Notes under the pieces: model-generated
Told to the model about the DNA's origin: nothing
The model's database searches: none
Seen by the model: only the letters and a program-made list of their open reading frames with translations
Source of the DNA: Pseudomonadota bacterium
GTDB taxonomy: Bacteria; Desulfobacterota; Desulfobulbia; Desulfobulbales; Desulfocapsaceae
Length of the DNA stretch: 64,000 nucleotides
Direction of reading: 5' to 3'
Assembly (NCBI GenBank): GCA_023412495.1
Contig: JAEYNP010000039.1
Span: 62,001 to 126,000, forward strand
Translations under genes and position numbers: made by a program
Shown: piece after piece, positions 839 to 57,673 of the stretch
Layout: each line of letters starts with the position of its first letter
Numbering within the stretch: the first letter of the stretch is position 1

Positions 839-2257
839 TCAGCCCCTCCATATTGTTTTCATTGTCCTGCCCTTTTCACGGATCGAAACGCTCATCGCCA
901 TCCTGCCGATGGCATGGGTCGAACAGGCGAGACAGGGATCGTAACAACGCACCACGAACTCCAGGCCATTCAGCATCCGTTCGTCCTCCGCGCCGATCAA
1001 TAGGGCATTGGCGCCCTCCTTGATCGATCTGTTGATCGCCGCGGTATTCTGCTGGGTGGCTATGATCATATTCGCCGCCCTGACGATACCGCGCTCGTCG
1101 ATCTCGTAGTCATGGATAAGGGTGCCCCTGGGAGCCTCGATATGGGCCACGCCTCTGCCGCCGGAGAAGGTCGCCGGCACCCGGTTGTCGCCCCGCAGGG
1201 CAGGCGTGTTGATCAGCTCGTCCGCCCGCTCGCAGGCATGGATCAGCTCGACCAGTTTGGCATACATCTGGATCACCGCGTTATGGCAGGGCCGGCCGAA
1301 TTTGGCGCGGAACTCCTCGAACTCCGCCTGGGCCAGCGGCGTGCCGATGCCGTCGACCACATTCAACCGGGCAAGCGTACTGACCCGGTAAAGGTGCTCC
1401 TCCCCCTCGTGTTCGAAGTAAACTTCCTTGGCGTAGGAGTTGGTCACCGTCCGTTCGACGAGGAACCGCCTGTAGTCCGTGCTGTCGAATTCGGTCTTGA
1501 TCGTGCCCTGCTCGTCCATGACCCGCAGCCGGCCGTCGTAGAAGTTGAGCAGCCCGCCATCGGTCACCGTGCCCATATACCAGGTCGGCAGGTTGAGGCT
1601 GTCGAGCAGCTGCGGATTGTCGTCGAAGAGCTTCAGGAGGAGGGTCTTGACAGGTCCTGTCAGCTCCTTTACCAGATTCACCGCCTCGGCGGTCAGTTCC
1701 TTCAGCTTCTGGAACTGGCCGTCGCTCAGCTCAAAGGAAATTCCGCCGGCGACGGCGGTGACCGGATGGATGCCGCGGCCGCCTACCGTCTCGTTGATCT
1801 TCTGGCCGAGGCTGCGGAGGCGGAGCCCTTTCTTGGCCAGCTCCGGCTCGGCGGCCACCATGCCGACGATGTTCTGGGTGGCGGGTTCGCCGTGGAGACC
1901 GAAGACCAGGTCGGGGCCTGCCAGCACGAAGAGCGAGAGGGCGTGGGAATGGATGACATGGCCCATGTACATGAATTCCCGAAGAAGTCGCGCGGCATCC
2001 GGAATCCGCACGCCAGCCGCGCGGTCCAGAGCTTTGGCCGCGACCAGGTGGTGGGCGGTGGGACAGACGCCGCAGATGCGCGCGGTCACCTGGGGCAAGG
2101 TGTGGGCCTGCATGCCGACCAGGATGCGCTCGAAGCCGCGCAGTTCGTTGACGCAGAAGAAGGCCTCCTCGACCTTGCCCTGATCGTCGCAATCGAGGAG
2201 AACCCGGGCATGACCCTCGATCCTCGTTACCGGATCTATTCTTATGGTTTTTGACAT
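839..2257 (-). CDS. [NiFe] hydrogenase large (catalytic) subunit, group 3-like
   Basis: A 472-residue large subunit. The N-terminus reads I-D-P-V-T-R-I-E-G-H. The first nickel-binding motif R-I-C-G-V-C is at 60-65 and the second, D-P-C-L-A-C-S-T-H, at 440-448, so all four nickel Cys ligands are present and none is Sec. A 24-residue tail follows His448 and would be removed by the maturation protease encoded at the end of the operon. Length and motifs resemble the F420-non-reducing (Mvh) and related group 3 enzymes rather than membrane-bound uptake enzymes. The start was set at 2257, where ATG overlaps the small-subunit TGA (TGATG); a 89-codon upstream extension would overlap that gene and is not credible. 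Confidence 0.92.
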   Translation of the reverse strand: MSKTIRIDPVTRIEGHARVLLDCDDQGKVEEAFFCVNELRGFERILVGMQAHTLPQVTARICGVCPTAHHLVAAKALDRAAGVRIPDAARLLREFMYMGHVIHSHALSLFVLAGPDLVFGLHGEPATQNIVGMVAAEPELAKKGLRLRSLGQKINETVGGRGIHPVTAVAGGISFELSDGQFQKLKELTAEAVNLVKELTGPVKTLLLKLFDDNPQLLDSLNLPTWYMGTVTDGGLLNFYDGRLRVMDEQGTIKTEFDSTDYRRFLVERTVTNSYAKEVYFEHEGEEHLYRVSTLARLNVVDGIGTPLAQAEFEEFRAKFGRPCHNAVIQMYAKLVELIHACERADELINTPALRGDNRVPATFSGGRGVAHIEAPRGTLIHDYEIDERGIVRAANMIIATQQNTAAINRSIKEGANALLIGAEDERMLNGLEFVVRCYDPCLACSTHAIGRMAMSVSIREKGRTMKTIWRG

Positions 2258-3189
2258 CAGCTGGCCTCCCCTTCGGCTATCCACTTGCGGATGAGAAATG
2301 TAGGTTTGTTGCCGATCATCTTGGTCGCCATGGCGTAGGCGTACTGCGTCTTTGCCGTTTTTTCCAGATGATCCTTCACCGTCTCGTACGGAATTGTGGT
2401 GAGCCGGGACATCCGCTGGCCGATCTCGGTGCGGATATCCCGGGTCGGCTCGGTCAAGACCTGCATGGTAGGGCCGGCGCAGCCGCTGCACGGCACGCCG
2501 TGGTTGGGACACGGGGCCAGGCACCGGTCAAGGGTGACCGAACCCTGGCAGACAAAGCCCTGGCTTAAGAAGCAGGTTTCCTTGTCCGGCACGCCCTCGG
2601 TGATCTCGCGGATCGCCCCCACCTCGGTCTTGACCATGGTCCGCCGGCAGCCGGCGCAAACGCTCTCCTTGACGACCGTGGACGCCCGCCCTTCGGTCAG
2701 GGCTGAAAGGCCCTCAAAGACGAAGTGGGGATGGGGCGGACAACCGGGCAGATAGAGATCGACATCGATGACCTCATCGACAGGGGTAACCATCTTTTCC
2801 AGAGCGCTTATGGAATTGTTCGGCAGGAAGCTGGTCCTGGTGGTCGGGCTCTGCCGGTAGACGTGATCCATGATCTCCTCGCGGCTGTGGGCCAGGCCCG
2901 CGCCATGCAGCCCGCCATAGACCGCGCAGGTGCCAAAAGCAATGATGGTTTTGCAGGCTTTCCGCATCTCGATCGCAGCATGGCGGTCGTGCTCCGTCCG
3001 CACCGAGCCGGTGAGGATGCCAATATCCGCCGCCGGATAATTCTTTTCGTCCGTCAACACCGGACATTTCTGAATCTCCACCGACTCCAGGACCTTCAGT
3101 ATCTTTTCATGCAGATCGACCAAGGCCACATGACAACCGCCGCAATCGCACAGCCACTCGGTATTCAGGCGAATCTTTTCTCCGCTCAT
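2257..3189 (-). CDS. [NiFe] hydrogenase small (iron-sulfur) subunit, group 3-like
   Basis: A 310-residue cytoplasmic-type small subunit with no Tat signal. The proximal-cluster region starts C-D-C-G-G-C-H (Cys14/16/19), followed by F-G-T-C-A and P-G-C-P-P. A Cys-rich C-terminal half (CAGCRR, then CFLSQGFVCQG, CLAPCPNHGVPCSGC) can supply ligands for further [4Fe-4S] clusters. This matches the MvhG/FrhG-type gamma subunits, which pass electrons from the NiFe site to a partner; here the partner is probably the adjacent ferredoxin. A good Shine-Dalgarno (AGAGGA) precedes the ATG. It is translationally coupled to the large subunit. Confidence 0.9.
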   Translation of the reverse strand: MSGEKIRLNTEWLCDCGGCHVALVDLHEKILKVLESVEIQKCPVLTDEKNYPAADIGILTGSVRTEHDRHAAIEMRKACKTIIAFGTCAVYGGLHGAGLAHSREEIMDHVYRQSPTTRTSFLPNNSISALEKMVTPVDEVIDVDLYLPGCPPHPHFVFEGLSALTEGRASTVVKESVCAGCRRTMVKTEVGAIREITEGVPDKETCFLSQGFVCQGSVTLDRCLAPCPNHGVPCSGCAGPTMQVLTEPTRDIRTEIGQRMSRLTTIPYETVKDHLEKTAKTQYAYAMATKMIGNKPTFLIRKWIAEGEAS

Positions 3190-47982: not shown

Positions 47983-50900
47983 TCAATCCCGTCCCCGCAA
48001 CTCCTGCTCAACACGCCCGCCGGGCTGCAGTTCGTAAAGGGTGTCGCGCAACCGCAGGCGGATTGGGGCGGCATGGCCGCTGAGGCTCTGGACGCCGATC
48101 CTCTCCCGCTCCAGGACCACCTTCAGCCAGTGCTTGCGGTAGAGGATGGTGAAGGTCATCCGCCGCACCTCCTCGGGCAGGGCCGGGTCGAACCGGAGGG
48201 TGTCCTCCCTGGTTTCCAGTCCGGTGTAGCAGCGCTGCATGAGGTCGACGGTGCCGGCCATGGCGCCGAGGTGGATGCCCTCGTGGGTGGTGCCGCCCTG
48301 GACATCGGCGATGTCGCTCTGCAGGGCCTCCTGGAACATGTGCCAGGACCGGCGGCGGTTGGACCTCGCCAGCACCCAGGCATGGACCACCCGGCTCAGG
48401 GTCGAGCCGTGGGAGGTCCGCTTGAGGTAGTAGTCGATATTTCTGGGAATGGTTTCGTGGAAAAACGGGTAGTCGAGGCGCCGGAACAGCTGGCGCAGCT
48501 CGTCGGCCGACAGCAGGTAGAAGAGCATGAGCACGTCCGCCTGCTTGGAGAGCTTGTAGCGGTTGGTGCTGTCGCCCTCGGCTTCGAGGATGCGGTCGAG
48601 GCGGTGGATATCGCCGTATTTCTTCCTGTAGCGGTCCCAGTCGAACTCTTCCAGCCGATCATACCCCTCGAACTGGCTGATAATACCGTTGTCATGGAAG
48701 ACGATGCGCATCCTGCGACTGATATCCTCCCAGCGGCGCAGCTCCTTATCCCCGAGGCCGAGATTTTCGCCCAGGAACTGCCGCCGATCCTCCGGCAGCA
48801 TCTCCAGCACTTCCAGGGCGCGGCAGAAGAGCCAGGCGACCATGACGTTGGTGTAGGCGTTATTGGCAAGGCCCGGCTCCGCCGCGCCCGGATATCCGGT
48901 GTGGAATTCGTCCGGGCCCATGATCCCCTTGATCTCGTAGCGGTCGAGGGCGCTGTCGTAGCTGGCGAGACTCGCCCAGAACCGCGCCGTTTCGACAATC
49001 ATTTCGGCGCCGTAGAAGGACATGAAGTCGATATCGCCGGTCACCTGGTAGTAGAGCCAGACATTGTAGGCCACCGCGATGTTGATGTGACGCTGGATCT
49101 GGGTTTCGTCTTTGACCCAGTGACCGGAGTCGGGATTGAGATGCAGCGTCTGGGCCTCCTCCCGTCCGTTGCTGCCGCTCTGCCACGGGAACATGACGCC
49201 GGCCAACCCCTCGCGCCTGGCCGCCAGCTTCGCCCGGGGCATCCGCCGGTACCGGTACTTGAGCAGCGCCCGGGTGATGTCGGGGATGCGCAGATTCAGG
49301 AAGGGAAAGACGAAGAGCTCGTCCCACATGATCAGGCCTCGATAGCCCTCGCCGTGCAGCCCCCGGGGTGGGACGCCCGCGTCCCGGTCGATCACGTGCA
49401 CCGAAACGGTCTGCAGCAGGTGGAAGATATGGAGATTGAGGAGCTGGGGGATTTTCGTCCCCGAGGTCTGCAGATCGAGGCCGCAGCGCTGCCAGAGATG
49501 GCCCCAGGCCCGCCTGTGCCCCCGCAGCAGGGTCTCGAAATCCGGGGCATGGGCGACCTGCTGGAGCGCCTCGTCGAGGCTCTCGGAGATGGCCCAGTCC
49601 CTGGAATTGTAGATGGCGACGATCTTCTCCAGGCGGACCTGCCGACCGGCCTCGACCGGCAGGCCGATCTCGCAGGCGACCCGGTCCCGCTCCCGCACCA
49701 GGCGGCGCTCGACATACAAGGCCTCCTCATCGCCGACGAAACATCTGGTACGGGCGGCCTCGGCAATCCGGACATGGGACTGGTTCGTCTCCGCCTCGAG
49801 CCAGATGATCCCGCCCTCCTCGTCGCCGCCCGTGCCGATGACGTCCAGGTGGTGGTTGTTCAGCTGCCGGTAGCGGGCCACCAGGGTATTCTCGACCCGG
49901 CCGTCGAGCGCGCTACGGATGCGGAGGACGCCCGACCAGTCCTTTACGCTGACCACCGTCTCGAGCCCCGCGAGATGGGGCAGCTCCATATTGACGAAGC
50001 GGCGCTCGCGCAGGAGAATCTCTTTTCCGTCCGCGACAAAACGGATGGACCTCGACAGAATGCCCGCGGCAAGATCAAGCTCCTGGCGATACTCGCCGGA
50101 CTCCATGGACGAGCTGTCCAGCCAGGGACCGTCGTCCAGTCGGAAGGCGAGCGGCAGCCAGTTGGGGACATTCACCACGCTCTCGTTCTCGACCTGCTCC
50201 CCCGCGATGCTGCTCCGCAGCCGGTTGTAGCAGCCGGCGATATATGTCCCGGGGTAGTGCTCCGGCCCGGCCTCGGCCTGGGGACTGGCGCCCCGGCCGG
50301 CAAAGTAGCCGTTGCCGAGGGTGCAGATGGACTCCCGCAGCTTCTCGCCGTCCGGGTCATAGCCCTCGTAGGCGATGGTCCAGACGCCCTTCTCCAACTC
50401 CCGTTCGGCCAGTGAGGCCAACTTTTCGAGAAAGGTCGTGACCTCGCCGGGATCTCGCAGGAAGTAGCGGGCGGCGGTAGGCCGGGGCCGCTCGCTGACC
50501 ACGATCGAGATGCCGTTCTCGCCAAGGCAGCGGAAACCGTCCTCGTCGGTGGTGTCGTCGCCGATATAGAGTGGTGTCACCCGTGACCCGTCGACATGGA
50601 ACCTCTGCAGCAGGGCCTGCAGCGCCCGGCCCTTGTGCCAGTCGACGTTCGGATGGAGTTCGAAGATCTTTTTGCCGGCACTCTTGCGCAACTCGTCGTA
50701 CCTCTCGACGAGGGCGTCGACCCGGTCTTCGATGGCCGCAATGGCCGGTTGTTCGGCATTGCGGTAGTGGACGGCGATGGCGAAGGGTTTACGCTCGATC
50801 CGGATGTGGTGCAAATCGCGGGCGGCCGGGCGAAGCTCCTGTTCGGCTTTCTCCAGGGCGAGGAGGTACGGCCCGGCGCGCCGTTCCTCGTCGAAATAGC

Positions 50901-51939
50901 CGCCCCCGCCGCTAATCTCGAAGCCGTGGCTGCCTGCACAGACTATCCCCTCGATCCCCACCATGCTGCTGACGTCCGCCAGGCTTCTGCCGCTGATGAC
51001 GGCCACGAACATGTGCCGGGCAAGTCTCGTCAGGACCTCCCTGGTCTTTTCCCCAAGCCGCGCCTGGCGGGGATCCTCGACGATGGGAGTGAGGGTGCCG
51101 TCGTAATCGATGAAGACGGCGGGCAGCTCTTTCCGCAGCCGGTTGAAGATGTCCTGGGTCTCGTCCAGAGCCGGGATCCACCTTTGCCGCCGCAAGGACA
51201 CGACACCATTCCCCCACTCGAGTTCACTCAAGTCCCCCACCACCAGGTCGGCGCCGCAGCAACCCAGGTCCGCCCGGCCTTCACGCTCGACCCCGACCAC
51301 CAGCGCGAAACCTCCCGCCTTGCCCGCCCGGATGCCTGCCTCCGCGTCCTCGACGATCATCGTCCGATGCGCCTCGACCCCGAGGCGGGCGGCGGCTTCG
51401 AAAAAAATGTCGGGCGCCGGCTTGCCGGCCAGTCCCCGGTCGGCGGCTTCCAAGCCGTCCACGACCACCGGGAACAGCTCGCCAAGGCCTGCTGCCGCAA
51501 GAACCTGCCGCGCGTTGCGGCTGGCGGAAATAAGAGCAAAGCGCAGGCCCGCCGCCTGTCCCTCCCGCATGAAGGTCAGCGTCGACTCGAAGGCCCTGAC
51601 ACCTTCCCTTGCAAGAATTTCGTGAAAGAACTCATTTTTCCTGTTGCCCAGGCCGCAGACGGTATCTCTCGCCGGGGGATCGTCGAGAAGGCCGTGCGGC
51701 AATCGAATGCCGCGGGAGGCGAGGAAGCTCTCAATCCCGTCGTAGCGGGGCTTGCCGTCCACGAATTTGCGGTAGTCGTCAAGATCGAATGGGACGAACT
51801 CCTCGCCCCGTCGATCGGCCCAGGCCGCCAGAAAATCGTCGAACAGCCGTTTCCAGGCCTTGGCATGGACTCGTGCCGTATCGGTTACCACGCCGTCCAT
51901 ATCCAGAATACAGGCGACGATCGAATCGTTGCGTTCCAT
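47983..51939 (-). CDS. Three-domain enzyme: beta-phosphoglucomutase-like HAD, trehalose-6-phosphatase, GH65 phosphorylase
   Basis: A 1318-residue fusion. Residues 1-250: HAD of beta-phosphoglucomutase type (L-D-M-D-G-V-V-T-D, G-K-P-A-P-D-I-F, V-E-D-A-E-A-G). About 262-500: trehalose-phosphatase (I-D-Y-D-G-T-L-T-P-I, I-S-G-R-S-L-A-D-V, G-S-H-G-F-E-I, G-D-D-T-T-D-E-D). About 510-1318: GH65 phosphorylase (G-T-Y-I-A-G, M-W-D-E-L-F-V-F-P-F, and M-G-P-D-E-F-H with the general acid Glu near 1006, then N-N-A-Y-T-N). Together these could turn trehalose 6-phosphate into trehalose, then glucose plus beta-glucose 1-phosphate, then glucose 6-phosphate. Start set at ATG 51939; the open frame before it lacks similarity. 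No trehalose-6-phosphate synthase is nearby. Confidence 0.88.
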   Translation of the reverse strand: MERNDSIVACILDMDGVVTDTARVHAKAWKRLFDDFLAAWADRRGEEFVPFDLDDYRKFVDGKPRYDGIESFLASRGIRLPHGLLDDPPARDTVCGLGNRKNEFFHEILAREGVRAFESTLTFMREGQAAGLRFALISASRNARQVLAAAGLGELFPVVVDGLEAADRGLAGKPAPDIFFEAAARLGVEAHRTMIVEDAEAGIRAGKAGGFALVVGVEREGRADLGCCGADLVVGDLSELEWGNGVVSLRRQRWIPALDETQDIFNRLRKELPAVFIDYDGTLTPIVEDPRQARLGEKTREVLTRLARHMFVAVISGRSLADVSSMVGIEGIVCAGSHGFEISGGGGYFDEERRAGPYLLALEKAEQELRPAARDLHHIRIERKPFAIAVHYRNAEQPAIAAIEDRVDALVERYDELRKSAGKKIFELHPNVDWHKGRALQALLQRFHVDGSRVTPLYIGDDTTDEDGFRCLGENGISIVVSERPRPTAARYFLRDPGEVTTFLEKLASLAERELEKGVWTIAYEGYDPDGEKLRESICTLGNGYFAGRGASPQAEAGPEHYPGTYIAGCYNRLRSSIAGEQVENESVVNVPNWLPLAFRLDDGPWLDSSSMESGEYRQELDLAAGILSRSIRFVADGKEILLRERRFVNMELPHLAGLETVVSVKDWSGVLRIRSALDGRVENTLVARYRQLNNHHLDVIGTGGDEEGGIIWLEAETNQSHVRIAEAARTRCFVGDEEALYVERRLVRERDRVACEIGLPVEAGRQVRLEKIVAIYNSRDWAISESLDEALQQVAHAPDFETLLRGHRRAWGHLWQRCGLDLQTSGTKIPQLLNLHIFHLLQTVSVHVIDRDAGVPPRGLHGEGYRGLIMWDELFVFPFLNLRIPDITRALLKYRYRRMPRAKLAARREGLAGVMFPWQSGSNGREEAQTLHLNPDSGHWVKDETQIQRHINIAVAYNVWLYYQVTGDIDFMSFYGAEMIVETARFWASLASYDSALDRYEIKGIMGPDEFHTGYPGAAEPGLANNAYTNVMVAWLFCRALEVLEMLPEDRRQFLGENLGLGDKELRRWEDISRRMRIVFHDNGIISQFEGYDRLEEFDWDRYRKKYGDIHRLDRILEAEGDSTNRYKLSKQADVLMLFYLLSADELRQLFRRLDYPFFHETIPRNIDYYLKRTSHGSTLSRVVHAWVLARSNRRRSWHMFQEALQSDIADVQGGTTHEGIHLGAMAGTVDLMQRCYTGLETREDTLRFDPALPEEVRRMTFTILYRKHWLKVVLERERIGVQSLSGHAAPIRLRLRDTLYELQPGGRVEQELRGRD

Positions 51940-52137
51940 AGATATTGTATTAAGCACAAAACCTGCCCTAAGGAAGACCGCGGTTGCCGAAAAATACCAG
52001 GGATCCGAAGCGGTACGGCATATTGCTCTTGGTATGGATGTTGCTAGTGTATTGGTACAGGGATTCGCAGAAGGCCTGCGGGCTTTGTGCGGGGACGGAC
52101 TCAAGGCACGAGGCAACGGTCGAGGAGGATAAGGAAA

Positions 52138-54522
52138 ATGGATGCAAGGCACGACTCCATCCGCTGGTTTTCGCAGATCGGCAAAAAAGACGTGGCCGCC
52201 GTTGGCGGCAAGAACAGCTCGCTCGGCGAAATGATCGCCGCCCTCAAGGCGGAGGGCCTCCGGGTGCCGGATGGCTTTGCCACGACCTCAGCTGCCTACC
52301 GCCGTTTCCTCGAGGAGAATCGCCTGATCGGCGGGATCGCCGAGTGGATTGGCCGGTATCGCGACAACCCCGACGATTTGGCCGCCGCCGGCCGAGCCAT
52401 CCGGACGATGATCCGGGAAGGGAGGTGGCCGGAGGAGATCGCCGGGGAGATCCGGCGGGCCTACCGGGAACTCGGCCGCCGACTCGGCGTCCGGCAGCCA
52501 GCGGTCGCGGTGCGCAGCAGCGCCACCGCCGAGGACATGCCCGAGGCGAGCTTCGCGGGCCAGCTCGAATCTTTTCTCAATATTTCCGGGGAGGATGATC
52601 TGCTCGACGCCTGCCGCCGGTGTTACGCCTCGCTCTTCACCGACCGTGCCATCGCCTATAGGGAAAACAAGGGTTTCGATCACCTGGCGGTCACGCTCTC
52701 GGTGGGCGTGCAGCAGATGGTGCGGGCCGATGGGGCCTGCTCGGGCGTGATGTTCTCCCTCGACCCGGAGACCGGCTTCCCGCATGTCGTGGTCATCGAC
52801 GGCGCCTGGGGGTTGGGGGAAAACGTGGTGCAGGGCAAGGTCAACCCCGACAGCTTCATCGCCTTCAAACCGCTGCTGGGCAGGGAAAACCTCCGGCCGA
52901 TCCTGTACAGGAGGCTCGGCTCCAAGGAGCAAAAAATGATCTACGGCGGCGAGCGCGACCGGCCTACCGTCAACATCGACACCACCGCCGAGGAGCGGCA
53001 GTCCTTTGTCCTCGACGACCATGAGGTCCTGCAGCTCGCCCGCTGGGCGGTGGTCATCGAGCGCCACTACGGCCGGCCCATGGATATCGAATGGGCCAAG
53101 GACGGCGAGAGCGGCGAGCTGTTCATCGTCCAGGCCCGGCCGGAAACCGTCCAGTCGATGAAGGGCAACACCCTCAAGAGTTACTCCCTCAAGGAAAAAG
53201 GCGAGATCCTGATCACCGGCCTGGCGATCGGCGAGGCCGTCGTCGCAGGCCGGGTGCAGGTGATCCAGAGCGCGGAGGATATCGACCGCTTTCGGCCGGG
53301 CAATATCCTGGTCACCGGCAGCACCGACCCCGACTGGGTGCCGATCATGAAAAAGGCGGCGGGGATAATCACCGACCACGGCGGACGGACCTCGCACGCG
53401 GCCATCGTCAGCCGGGAGCTGGGCATCGCCGCGGTCGTCGGCACCGGCCGCGGCACTTCGAAACTTACGGACGGCCAGGAGGTGACCCTCTCCTGCGCGG
53501 AGGGCGACCAGGGGCGGATCTATAGAGGCATCCTCGAACACGAGGAAGAGGAGATAGATCTCGATCGCCTGCCGGAGGTCGCGACCCCGATCATGGTGAA
53601 TCTCGCCAGCCCCGGCGCGGCCCTGCGCTGGTGGCGCCTGCCGGTCCGGGGCGTGGGTCTCGCCCGCATGGAATTCATCATCAACAACAGCATCCAGGTC
53701 CATCCGCTGGCCCTGGCCGACTACGACCGGCTGGAGGACGAAAAGGCCAAGGAGCGGATCGATGCGCTGACCCAAGGCTACCGGGACCGGCGGGAGTTTT
53801 TCGTCGACCGGCTCAGCCAGGGCATCGCCCTGATCGCCGCCAGCCGCTGGCCCGATCCGGTGATCGTGCGGATGAGCGATTTCAAGACCAACGAGTACGC
53901 CGATCTCATCGGCGGCCGCCAGTTCGAGTTCAAGGAAGAAAATCCCATGCTCGGCTTCCGGGGCGCCTCCCGCTACTACAGCGAGCACTACCGGCGGGGC
54001 TTCGCCCTGGAGTGCGCGGCCATCCGGCGGGTGCGCGAGGAGATCGGCCTGTCTAACGTCATCGTCATGATCCCCTTCTGCCGGACCCCGGAGGAGGCGG
54101 ACAGGGTCCTCACGGTTATGGCCGAATACGGACTGGTACGGGGGGAAGAGGGCCTCGAGGTTTACATGATGGTGGAGATCCCCGCCAATGTGGAGCTGGC
54201 CGAGCAGTTCGCCGAACGCTTCGACGGCTTCTCCATCGGCTCCAACGACCTGACCCAGCTGGTCCTGGGGGTCGACCGGGATTCGGCCCAGTTGAAGGAG
54301 CTGTTCGACGAGCGGAACCCGGCGGTCAAGTCGATGATCTCCCGGGTCATTCAGAGCGCCCGCAAGACCGGGACCAAGATCGGCATCTGCGGCCAGGCCC
54401 CCAGCGATTATCCCGATTTCGCCGCCTTCCTGGTCGAGGAAGGCATCGATTCCATCTCACTCAATCCGGACAGCGTGGTCGGGGTGATCCGCCGGCTGGC
54501 GGGAATTGGCAAAAGCAAATGA
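52138..54522 (+). CDS. ppsA: Phosphoenolpyruvate synthase
   Basis: A 794-residue enzyme converting pyruvate, ATP and water to phosphoenolpyruvate, AMP and phosphate for gluconeogenesis. In order: ATP-grasp domain (V-G-G-K-N-S-S-L-G-E-M, A-V-R-S-S-A-T-A-E-D), the swivelling phospho-His domain (G-G-R-T-S-H-A-A-I, His near 420) and the PEP/pyruvate TIM barrel (G-S-N-D-L-T-Q-L, and the catalytic Cys in G-I-C-G-Q-A-P-S near 752). Full length. GAGGAGG precedes the ATG. It is divergent from the trehalose enzyme and 49 bp upstream of the first UGA-containing rhodanese, so the three may be one operon. Confidence 0.95.
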   Translation: MDARHDSIRWFSQIGKKDVAAVGGKNSSLGEMIAALKAEGLRVPDGFATTSAAYRRFLEENRLIGGIAEWIGRYRDNPDDLAAAGRAIRTMIREGRWPEEIAGEIRRAYRELGRRLGVRQPAVAVRSSATAEDMPEASFAGQLESFLNISGEDDLLDACRRCYASLFTDRAIAYRENKGFDHLAVTLSVGVQQMVRADGACSGVMFSLDPETGFPHVVVIDGAWGLGENVVQGKVNPDSFIAFKPLLGRENLRPILYRRLGSKEQKMIYGGERDRPTVNIDTTAEERQSFVLDDHEVLQLARWAVVIERHYGRPMDIEWAKDGESGELFIVQARPETVQSMKGNTLKSYSLKEKGEILITGLAIGEAVVAGRVQVIQSAEDIDRFRPGNILVTGSTDPDWVPIMKKAAGIITDHGGRTSHAAIVSRELGIAAVVGTGRGTSKLTDGQEVTLSCAEGDQGRIYRGILEHEEEEIDLDRLPEVATPIMVNLASPGAALRWWRLPVRGVGLARMEFIINNSIQVHPLALADYDRLEDEKAKERIDALTQGYRDRREFFVDRLSQGIALIAASRWPDPVIVRMSDFKTNEYADLIGGRQFEFKEENPMLGFRGASRYYSEHYRRGFALECAAIRRVREEIGLSNVIVMIPFCRTPEEADRVLTVMAEYGLVRGEEGLEVYMMVEIPANVELAEQFAERFDGFSIGSNDLTQLVLGVDRDSAQLKELFDERNPAVKSMISRVIQSARKTGTKIGICGQAPSDYPDFAAFLVEEGIDSISLNPDSVVGVIRRLAGIGKSK

Positions 54523-54571
54523 GATCAATGCCCCACGGTCGGGCTTACGATAAGCGATAAGGAGAACAGAC

Positions 54572-54904
54572 ATGGAAGCAGCAAGAATATCGAAGAACGA
54601 AGTCAGGGAAAAACTCGGAAATCCGGGCGTGACGGTTATCGACGTCCGCCACGAACAGAGCAGCGCAGCGGAGAAAATAGCCGGGGCCCTGCTGGAGAAC
54701 CCCGACAAGGTCGAATTCTGGCAGAACAAATACGCCAAAGACAGGGAAATCATCCTCTACTGCTCCTGACCCAACGAAAACACCAGTGCCGGTGCGGCAC
54801 GGCAGTTGACTCAGAAGGGCTTTTCCCGGGTGTCCGCCCTGAAGGGCGGCTGGAACGAGTGGCGAGAGGGTGGGTATCCCATCGAGCCGGTCGGGGGGAG
54901 ATGA
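54572..54904 (+). CDS. Rhodanese-domain protein with in-frame UGA (predicted selenocysteine), copy 1
   Basis: Read through TGA at 54767-54769, the frame gives 110 residues. The first 65 (R-I-S-K-N-E-V-R, T-V-I-D-V-R, I-I-L-Y-C-S) are the front half of a rhodanese. After the UGA come P-N-E-N-T-S-A-G-A-A-R-Q-L, L-K-G-G-W-N-E-W and G-Y-P-I-E-P, the exact back half. Rhodaneses of this kind normally have Y-C-x-C-P-x-E, so UGA falls on the second Cys. The catalytic residue may be Cys64 or the Sec at 66. Ending at the UGA would leave half a fold. A SECIS-like hairpin follows, and the paralogue at 55033 has the same arrangement. Start ATG preceded by AAGGAG. No sel genes are in the window. Confidence 0.88.
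54767..54769 (+). promoter_or_regulatory. Predicted selenocysteine UGA codon, rhodanese copy 1
   Basis: TGA in frame after TAC-TGC-TCC. The frame stays open for 44 more codons with family-specific sequence and then stops at TGA 54902-54904. Confidence 0.85.
54783..54802 (+). promoter_or_regulatory. SECIS-like hairpin, rhodanese copy 1
   Basis: CC, bulged A, GUGCC, loop GGUGC, GGCAC, GG. It starts 13 nt after the UGA. The layout (short lower stem, one bulged base on the 5' side, five-pair upper stem, loop with GU) parallels the E. coli fdhF SECIS, though the bulge there is U. Confidence 0.7.
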
Positions 54905-55032
54905 TCCTCCCGCCGTTGTAACGATTCAGAAAGAGCTGCGAGCGGCAGCGTGCCGCCGCCGGCCTGAATCGTGAAGGCAGATAACCGTCTGCCCGGACAA
55001 CAACGGGCTAGACGACATAAGGAGATGTAATT
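54905..55032 (+). other. Structured spacer between the two rhodanese genes
   Basis: ACGATTCAG (54921-54929) and CTGAATCGT (54964-54972) are a perfect 9-bp inverted repeat enclosing a second one, GCGGCA/TGCCGC (54942-54947, 54951-54956). A third hairpin GGCAGA/TCTGCC follows (54976-54993). No U-run follows, so this is more a processing or stability structure than a terminator. Confidence 0.5.
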
Positions 55033-55362
55033 ATGGAACCAAGAATATCGAAGAACGAAGTCAGAGATAAGCTCGGGAAGCAGGACGTGATCGTCATCGA
55101 CGTCCGCCATGACCAGCGCACCGCCACGGAAAAAATAGCGGGCGCCATGTTGGAGGATCACGAGAAGGTCGAGCTTTGGCTGGGCAAGTACCCGAAAGAC
55201 AAGGAAATCATCCTCTACTGCTCCTGACCCGACGAGAACACCTGTGCCAGTTCGGCACGGCAGTTGATGCAGAACGGTTTCTCCAGGGTTTCCAGCCTGA
55301 AGGGCGGCTGGAACGAGTGGCGCGCGGATGGGTACCCCGTCGAGCCGATCGGGACCCGGTGA
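55033..55362 (+). CDS. Rhodanese-domain protein with in-frame UGA (predicted selenocysteine), copy 2
   Basis: A 109-residue frame through TGA at 55225-55227. The first 64 residues parallel copy 1 (P-R-I-S-K-N-E-V-R-D-K-L-G, V-I-V-I-D-V-R-H, I-I-L-Y-C-S). After the UGA the sequence continues P-D-E-N-T-C-A-S-S-A-R-Q-L, L-K-G-G-W-N-E-W, G-Y-P-V-E-P and stops at 55360-55362. The nucleotide differences from copy 1 are largely conservative at the protein level on both sides of the UGA, so selection has kept the whole frame. It has an extra Cys six residues after the UGA. AAGGAG lies before the ATG. Cytosolic, single rhodanese domain; probable sulfur or selenium transfer or redox role. Confidence 0.88.
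55225..55227 (+). promoter_or_regulatory. Predicted selenocysteine UGA codon, rhodanese copy 2
   Basis: Same position in the active-site loop as in copy 1 (TAC-TGC-TCC-TGA-CCC); 44 sense codons follow in frame. Confidence 0.85.
55241..55260 (+). promoter_or_regulatory. SECIS-like hairpin, rhodanese copy 2
   Basis: CC, bulged U, GUGCC, loop AGUUC, GGCAC, GG, starting 13 nt after the UGA. It keeps the bulged U and the GU-containing loop of the bacterial SECIS. The loop differs from copy 1 but the stem is identical. Confidence 0.75.
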
Positions 55363-55846: not shown

Positions 55847-56653
55847 TCAAACACAAGAGGAGCGATCTTCCGGCAAAGGACTCCGCTCCGCTTCATCTTT
55901 TCGTGGCAGATAGAAGCTTGGGCCGAACAGGACATTCAGCTCATTGTCGACTTCAACGGCTCCCCCCTCCAGGGCGTTCTCCGTCGCGGCCCGCCGCTCG
56001 CCCCAGGTATCCACCGTACCGGTCAGCGTCGCTTTGCCGTCATCGACTCTCACCGTGATATCGCCCCCGTCCACGAAAGGACTCCAGAAGAATTCGTCCT
56101 TGATGTCCTCCTTGAGCTCCCAGTCGCTCTTCTTCACGGTCGTGGCCACCCCGTTGGTAATATAGCCGTAGTCGTGGGAGGACAACTCGTCCACGTATGG
56201 GTTGTAGATGTCAAGGAAGGGCTCGTTGACCGTCAGATAATTCCTGACCCGGACAACCCCCTGCTGAAGGGAAGCGATGTCCTCGGCCCGGCTTTTTTCG
56301 AACGCGCTGTCGACATCGCCGAAGAGATAGACCACCCCGTTCGTCGCCGAAATATTGATATCGAATCGATTGATGTAAGGATCCTCCAGAAGCGCGTTAC
56401 GGATTTCTGCGGCCAGGGCGCTGCCTTCGACGTCCCGGGTCCTGACCTTGATCTTGTTGTCGACACTCCAAACCCCGACCACGGACTCCGCAGACCTTGT
56501 CGCCGCCCGCTTCGCCTTGAGGTTGTCCACGTTGCCGCGCAGGGTCACATGTCCCTGGTCGGAGATGACGGCCACTTTGTAGGAAGCGACCCGCGGATCG
56601 TACAAGAGGACATCCTTCACCGCCTGCTCGATCCGTGCATCCGTCCGGGCCAC
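55847..56653 (-). pseudogene. BON-domain protein, C-terminal piece of a split gene
   Basis: 268 codons from a GTG that is probably not a genuine start. It holds three BON repeats (D-A-R-I-E-Q-A-V-K-D-V-L-L-Y-D-P-R-V onward; A-L-A-A-E-I-R-N-A-L-L-E-D-P; E-L-K-E-D-I-K-D-E-F-F-W-S-P). Upstream, in this frame, D-L-E-R-L-R-K-D-K-Y-V-A-R-T-D continues open into the preceding gene's sequence, which shows the two pieces once formed one multi-BON protein. BON domains bind membranes or periplasmic ligands. Translation may still occur by reinitiation, as the two frames overlap by 37 bp. Confidence 0.65.
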
Positions 56654-57330
56654 ATACTTGTCCTTGCGCAGACGCTCAAGGTCACCTTTCCCTTTTCCAC
56701 GGCCACATCGATCAGCGCGTCATCCACGAAAGCATCCCAGTGCAGCATGCCTTCTATATTCTCACGGATCTCGGCGTCGCTTCGATCGGCCCGGTAATCG
56801 ATCCTGATGTTATTGGCGAGGGCCTTCACGCCTCGCACCCCTTTCGCCACCTTGCCGGCGAGCCGGTATTCCTGCCAGGAATCCACCTCCCCGGCCAGGG
56901 TGACCGTCCCATTCTCCACCGAGGCCTGCAGTTCCCGGCCTTCGGTGGCAGGGTCCCTGGCCAGGGCCTTCTGCACGGCCTCCCTGATCTCCGCATCCGA
57001 TCTCGCCGGCGCATCCACCGTTATGGCGTTGACCACGCCCCGCACGCCTTTCACCGTCGCGGCGATCTTTTCCGCCCGCTCCTTTTCGAGGATGCTGGTG
57101 ACATCCCCGGTCAGGGTGACGATTCCCTCGCTGGTGATGACATCGAGATTCCATGCCGGAATGGCCGGATCCTTGGCCAGCTGGTCATCGACGGCATCCC
57201 GAATCTGCTGGTCCGTCAGCTCATCCTGGGCTCCGGCATGGCCTGGACCCCAGACAGTGGCGAGGCAGACAGCAGCCAGACCTGTAAGAAACAACAAGAG
57301 TATTCTAACGATTACGATGGATTTCAACAT
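56617..57330 (-). pseudogene. BON-domain protein, N-terminal piece of a split gene
   Basis: 237 codons. A signal peptide (M-L-K-S-I-V-I-V-R-I-L-L-L-F-L, cleavage near G-A-Q) is followed by BON repeats beginning L-T-D-Q-Q-I-R-D-A-V, S-D-A-E-I-R-E-A-V-Q and S-D-A-E-I-R-E-N-I-E. The third breaks off right after E-K-G-K-V-T-L, where the frame turns into an unrelated basic tail. About 40 residues expected between here and the downstream piece are missing, so an out-of-frame deletion is the simplest reading. Start ATG 57330 follows GGGGAGGTG. The product could still be a secreted two- or three-BON protein. Confidence 0.65.
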
Positions 57331-57673
57331 CTTACACCTCCCCGCGTCGAGAATCATTCCGGTATCTGCACCAAAGGACTCCAAGATTGATGCCAGTAAC
57401 GTTTTCATCAACAGAAACAAAAAAATTCCGGTCCGTTACTTGAAACCGGCAATGCAACGCAGCACCTTTCCTTCAGGATGTGACGTCCGTCGTCGCAAGA
57501 CACCATCCGATCAAACAGGACCGGATAGCAGTCAGGATCTGCTTGTTATTGCATTGGATCGTGCCGGCTCATGTCCATGGTCTTGTCAGGCTGGCGATCT
57601 TTTTGCATGAGTGCCTTCCAGGTGATGCATCTCAAGTAATGAAAAAACCTTTCTTCTGTAGGGAGTTCTTTGG
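57331..57673. other. Divergent gap between BON gene and dnaE2-like gene
   Basis: 343 bp in which I see no gene. GGGAG precedes the polymerase start. I could not identify a LexA operator or any other known site. Confidence 0.4.

Follow-up and report, generated by a model that had tools for sequence, protein, structure and literature searches.

Two tandem rhodanese genes of the NF041203 family with predicted selenocysteine in their active-site loops

GlpE, the single-domain thiosulfate sulfurtransferase (profile NF001195, PDB 1gmx), is not known to contain selenocysteine (Sec). TsoB (NF045694), a rhodanese/DsbD fusion-like protein of 572 positions, is a selenoprotein with a rhodanese part, and in the part of a 2026 review available to us (PMC13188914) its motif is UxxxxU. 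The same part of that review enters the NCBIfam family NF041203 (rhodanese_LYCAU, "rhodanese-related (seleno)protein") under rhodanese form 3 and gives its motif as CxU; a 2022 review (PMC9312934), likewise available in part, has a COG0607 form 2, again CxU, whose example accession is identical to that in the later review. In a full-text search of open-licence literature, PMC13188914 alone mentioned NF041203, and such searches, with their incomplete coverage, turned up no experiments on the family. Here we describe two genes, R1 and R2, that lie head to tail in a 64,000-nucleotide stretch of a Desulfocapsaceae genome (contig JAEYNP010000039.1, positions 62,001 to 126,000; hereafter the window). 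They are new members of this known, catalogued selenoprotein family and not a new family.

A rhodanese domain across an in-frame UGA and a hairpin 3′ of it

R1 (54572..54904, plus strand) starts with the ATG at 54572 and would encode 110 residues with UGA as Sec; R2 (55033..55362, plus strand) starts with the ATG at 55033 and would encode 109. Just 5′ of each ATG is a ribosome-binding-like AAGGAG (54559..54564 and 55019..55024, both plus). The in-frame UGA, at 54767..54769 in R1 (predicted Sec 66) and 55225..55227 in R2 (predicted Sec 65), both plus, is followed in each gene by 44 codons and a true stop, which is again UGA (54902-54904 and 55360-55362). A first-pass annotation, made from the sequence alone, had placed the in-frame UGA at the same position of the active-site loop in both paralogues, and it does stand in Tyr-Cys-Ser-UGA-Pro in R1 and R2 alike; the back-half motifs that it named (ENT, ARQL, LKGGWNEW and GYPxEP) are likewise all present in both before the stop.

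Pfam Rhodanese (PF00581) spans the UGA above its gathering score in R1 (residues 8-99, 50 bits, E 4.3e-13) and in R2 (residues 7-98, 51.3 bits, E 1.8e-13). NF041203, with a curated cut-off of 115 bits, is matched at 130.3 bits by R1 and 130.2 by R2, and the likeness to this family extends to the C-x-U loop, the in-frame UGA and a bacterial selenocysteine insertion sequence (bSECIS). Both proteins fall far under the cut-off for GlpE (41.8 bits for R1 and 38.4 for R2, against 102), and the TsoB profile is not reached either (23.5 and 24.2 bits, cut-off 805).

The bSECIS model in PMC13188914, as given in the part of the review available, has a loop of 3-9 nucleotides (nt) with a G within loop positions 1-2, mostly followed by G or U, an upper stem of 4-16 bp, a UGA-to-loop distance of 16-37 nt and a minimum free energy of -7.5 or lower. 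The hairpins of R1 (54786..54800, loop GGTGC) and R2 (55244..55258, loop AGTTC), both on the plus strand and identified by comparison and by this model, fit it, with the 5-bp stem GTGCC/GGCAC, a UGA-to-loop distance of 21 nt and energies of -12.2 and -13.0 kcal/mol over 45 nt. Comparison was made on a gap-free alignment of 62 UGA-form sequences, 45 bases each from the UGA onward. In these, the stem (columns 20-24 with 30-34) is paired in 99.7% of 310 cells, and shifting the partner by 1-3 columns lowers pairing to 21.9-62.6%. Two-sided changes occur in four of the five stem pairs, amounting to 22 cells versus 4.7 in shuffles.

A wider set gave the same picture. Among 101 UGA forms, five pairs are kept in 99 and four in the other 2; among 19 non-UGA forms, five pairs are found in one (L057) and four in two (L065 and L126), where L065 is counted as non-Sec (CxS) despite a UGA one codon on, the non-Sec count being 1/18 without it. 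One of the stem pairs joins two third-codon positions (U-A in 80 of the UGA forms, C-G in 18, U-G in 2 and C-A in 1), so that its covariation is mostly silent in the protein. R1 and R2 are a strong case of bSECIS covariation within a coding region.

Taken together, these comparisons make it very likely that R1 and R2 are selenoproteins of the NF041203 family in which UGA would be read as Sec under an in-frame bSECIS hairpin. The selenoprotein reading of the first-pass annotation is supported by the family match, by sequence conserved before as well as after the UGA and by a covarying hairpin at the right spacing. Further support comes from most of the relatives gathered, which have their UGA at this position, and from Sec machinery in the genomes of the two closest relatives found (the full set in G538; in G519, all but SelA matched).

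Loop motifs, tandem copies and a leaderless branch

The search for relatives covered the phylum of G001, from which row L001 comes (297 genomes), and the order to which G264 belongs (242 genomes); the latter search was chosen via the window Mfd, which has matches in 296 of the 297 genomes, the best of them (59%) in G264. The NF041203 cut-off was exceeded in 46 of the 297 and in 62 of the 242 genomes, and 61 of 66 places over the cut-off in the phylum have at least one in-frame TGA. For loop motifs we gathered 121 distinct rows, a set biased toward the best family matches and toward non-TGA cases fetched by choice: CxU in 89, UxU in 11, GxU in 1, CxC in 14, CxS in 4 and CxA in 2. The first-pass annotation had expected Cys to be the usual residue of relatives where R1 and R2 have UGA; in this set, most rows have UGA there too. 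Two rows were dropped throughout (L037, the same place as L001, and L066, the same as L132). L063 and L081, broken or lacking a motif, enter none of the counts of motifs, hairpins and leaders, nor the tree; L118 and L119, whose UGA copies were matched in part and have no readable motif, are left out of the motif counts for those copies; and L134, added to the tree by hand, is absent from the motif, leader and wider hairpin counts.

Some loops depart from the common pattern. In the 11 U-x-U rows (L018, L024, L026, L035, L046, L051, L052, L054, L056, L075 and L127), an extra in-frame UGA replaces the first loop Cys, six bases 5′ of the usual UGA, with one hairpin 3′. In L065 (G277) the UGA is shifted one codon 3′ (Y-C-C-S-UGA), while the usual columns of the hairpin still form four of its five pairs. 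In L057 (G195) the Sec site is a Ser codon, TCA, and all five pairs are kept, perhaps as a fossil SECIS.

The tree comprises 121 rows and 105 columns; many of its forks are unresolved, and the bootstrap was not fully settled. Neither the tree nor the leader counts include L019 or any row shorter than 85 residues, which excludes the UGA copies of L118 and L119. R1 and R2 are sisters (100/83), joined next by G519 (100/90), G538 (88/76) and, weakly, G256 (84/37). Leaders were called from hydrophobicity alone, without a signal-peptide program. Most family members bear one (107 of 120 rows), whereas the window pair is leaderless and forms a Sec+Sec tandem; no hydrophobic leader precedes the domain in R1, R2, G519, G538 (judged by eye) or G256. 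Because other rows without a clear leader (e.g., L072, L079 and L127) branch elsewhere in the tree, leader loss is not unique to this group. As single-domain rhodaneses without a hydrophobic leader, R1 and R2 are probably cytosolic.

In the closest relative found, G519, one rhodanese copy was seen, in a partly conserved neighbourhood. It is 68% identical to R1 and 63% to R2 and reads G-x-U, the first Cys of the loop being replaced by Gly and the Sec kept. Around it, a 19-kb contig stretch carries orthologues of window genes, namely the histidine kinase (78%), the GH65-like protein (60-80%, in pieces), p45 (88%) and the ABC protein (86%); other window genes (phosphoenolpyruvate (PEP)-synthase-like, BON, DnaE-like, UDG-like and PPK) have no match in that stretch. 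R1 and R2, which are 73% identical over 102 aligned residues, are a tandem duplication that probably followed the split from G519.

Six relatives (L115-L120) have tandem pairs of a different make-up, a UGA rhodanese with a Cys one (YCAC). As in the window, two family-type genes lie head to tail; the matched domains are about 200-230 nt apart, the first gene carries a UGA, and it has the full hairpin in the four rows scored. They differ from the window pair in the YCAC of the second gene, in hydrophobic leaders where the start was matched and in branching elsewhere in the tree; in L118 and L119 the UGA gene was matched only in part, and those two copies are outside the tree. Since these pairs, where they can be placed, branch away from R1 and R2, the tandem arrangement probably arose more than once. 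One can envision the six loop types (CxU, UxU, GxU, CxC, CxS and CxA) on one scaffold, together with Sec+Sec and Sec+Cys tandems, as a natural series on what Sec adds to rhodanese chemistry. We found no description of the leaderless branch, the Sec+Sec tandem or the G-x-U orthologue in the open-licence literature, some of it available in part; these are modest features.

What the Cys-Sec loop might do

The rhodanese fold is complete over the read-through product, both in the model and in the VIA matches, and 120 of the 121 rows open the loop motif with Cys or Sec. For the C-x-U motif the first-pass annotation had proposed a part in selenium or sulfur transfer or in redox chemistry. With Cys and Sec two residues apart in the active-site loop, we imagine that one of the pair would take up sulfane sulfur as a persulfide or selenosulfide, that the other would attack it to give a Cys-Sec bond and that a thioredoxin-type reductant would reopen this bond. 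Such a cycle might make R1 and R2 persulfide reductases or sulfur carriers. We offer this tentatively, as somewhat short of probable, because alignments disagree on which residue occupies the catalytic position: the first loop Cys aligns with the canonical catalytic Cys in 3tp9, 6pfz and 3nhv, and the Sec does so with both domains of 6mxv. Neither would a single Cys-Sec mechanism suit every member of the family, given that G519 begins the loop motif with Gly and that six rows have Ser or Ala where the Sec would stand.

It is also quite conceivable, if on the doubtful side, that the Sec is real and that the protein, instead of being an enzyme of sulfur transfer or persulfides, carries selenium or serves general thiol redox chemistry. 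The C-x-U and U-x-U loops look redox-like, and redox roles are expected for most such families in the part of PMC9312934 available. The complete fold and the near-constant Cys or Sec at the head of the loop, however, fit persulfide chemistry, and no selenium-metabolism genes were recognised among 30 scanned window proteins.

A further reading puts selenium first. G519 has Gly and yet keeps the Sec, and the 6mxv alignment puts Sec at the catalytic position; the window pair, G519, G538 and G256 might constitute a cytosolic branch in which Sec, and not the Cys before it, is the working residue, a "selenium-first rhodanese," with a tandem duplication in which both UGAs and both hairpins were kept. 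We regard this as unlikely.

Decoding of UGA and the surrounding genes

If UGA were a true stop, R1 and R2 would be pseudogenes or would give products of 65 and 64 residues, respectively. Gene calling does end there. The database copy of R2, P0002, is a 64-residue call that stops at the UGA, as the first-pass annotation had predicted, and so is P0003, a metagenomic relative that is 88% identical. R1 and R2 make a clean case of such calling, which costs each of the two proteins about 40 percent, again as foreseen. With both P0002 and P0003 ending at UGA, a sequencing error is disfavoured. The same codon, however, recurs in both window copies, in P0003 and in most of the relatives gathered; conservation runs on past it, compensatory changes keep the stem, and the short product would lose model helices 69-80 and 92-98 and strands 86-89 and 103-105. 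We consider a true stop very improbable, even though the Sec machinery seen is that of relatives' genomes. More remote still, to the point of being negligible, is a changed code in which UGA is generally an amino acid, a possibility that the first-pass annotation had itself raised: it would explain a frame open beyond the UGA, but recognisable window genes (HtpG, BamA, Mfd and the PEP-synthase-like, GH65-like, DnaE-like and hydrogenase large-subunit genes) end at UGA, as do 23 of 43 coding-like window frames and, at their later UGA, R1 and R2 themselves.

Among the relatives, G538 has SelA, SelB, SelD and tRNA-Sec. G519 has SelB (352 bits) and SelD (348 bits, its frame containing a TGA), and its tRNA-Sec, cut by the contig end, scores 53 bits and is identical to that of G538 over the part present. 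In the first three genomes checked for SelB, it was found in G001 (UGA form) and G003 and not in G002, whose row L002 is the Cys form. SelB was over the cut-off in all six picked carriers, including G050, G060 and G197, in which tRNA-Sec is under its cut-off, and G080, in which it is marginal (47.2 bits), and in both members of a third set.

Several observations weigh against reading UGA as Sec in R1 and R2. Neither a tRNA nor any Rfam match was found within the 64-kb window, the Sec machinery being known from the genomes of relatives alone, and the SelA search of G519 gave no match. tRNA-Sec does not discriminate, being found in 43 of 46 carriers and in 43 of 46 chosen non-carriers in the phylum of G001, the latter hand-picked by weak or no match from the 251 genomes that scored under the cut-off. 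Taken singly, the folding energies are ordinary (z of -0.77 for R1 and -1.25 for R2); what tells is the comparison. In favour of the Sec reading, R1 and R2 are conserved after the UGA much as before it, as judged from nonsynonymous and synonymous rates in the aligned codons (dN/dS 0.148/0.556 before the UGA and 0.163/0.428 after). These figures rest on few changes, with some 10 synonymous and 15 other ones after the UGA, and have no test of significance.

A crude scan of the window by composition and hairpin for further UGA/Sec genes yielded seven frames, two with a hairpin: R2 and one that runs opposite to the gene of the histidine kinase. R1 escaped the scan, which is therefore of poor sensitivity. 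We recognised no partner genes of R1 and R2 in the window, and a consensus scan found no promoter. Terminator-like sites number 6, versus 1.1 in shuffles; five are on the minus strand, and three of these overlap the R1 hairpin.

At 34 of 115 loci there is a family of membrane-protein-like frames, most of them roughly 420-460 residues long; all but one of the 34 lie upstream and on the same strand (e.g., L020:1908-3356 and L085:1928-3235, both minus). Three examples had no match in Pfam or NCBIfam, and one had none in the PDB.

Elsewhere in the window, positions 839-3189 (minus) hold large and small hydrogenase subunits, with VhuA and VhuG as the best matches, under those cut-offs. The large subunit was considered as a NiFeSe candidate and ruled out, as its DPCLACSTH carries Cys and not Sec. 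Overlapping BON-domain frames at 55847-56653 and 56617-57420 (55847-57420, minus), in different reading frames, represent either two genes or one that is frameshifted. A 1389-residue frame at 47983-52152 (minus) combines HAD hydrolase, trehalose-phosphatase and GH65 domains.
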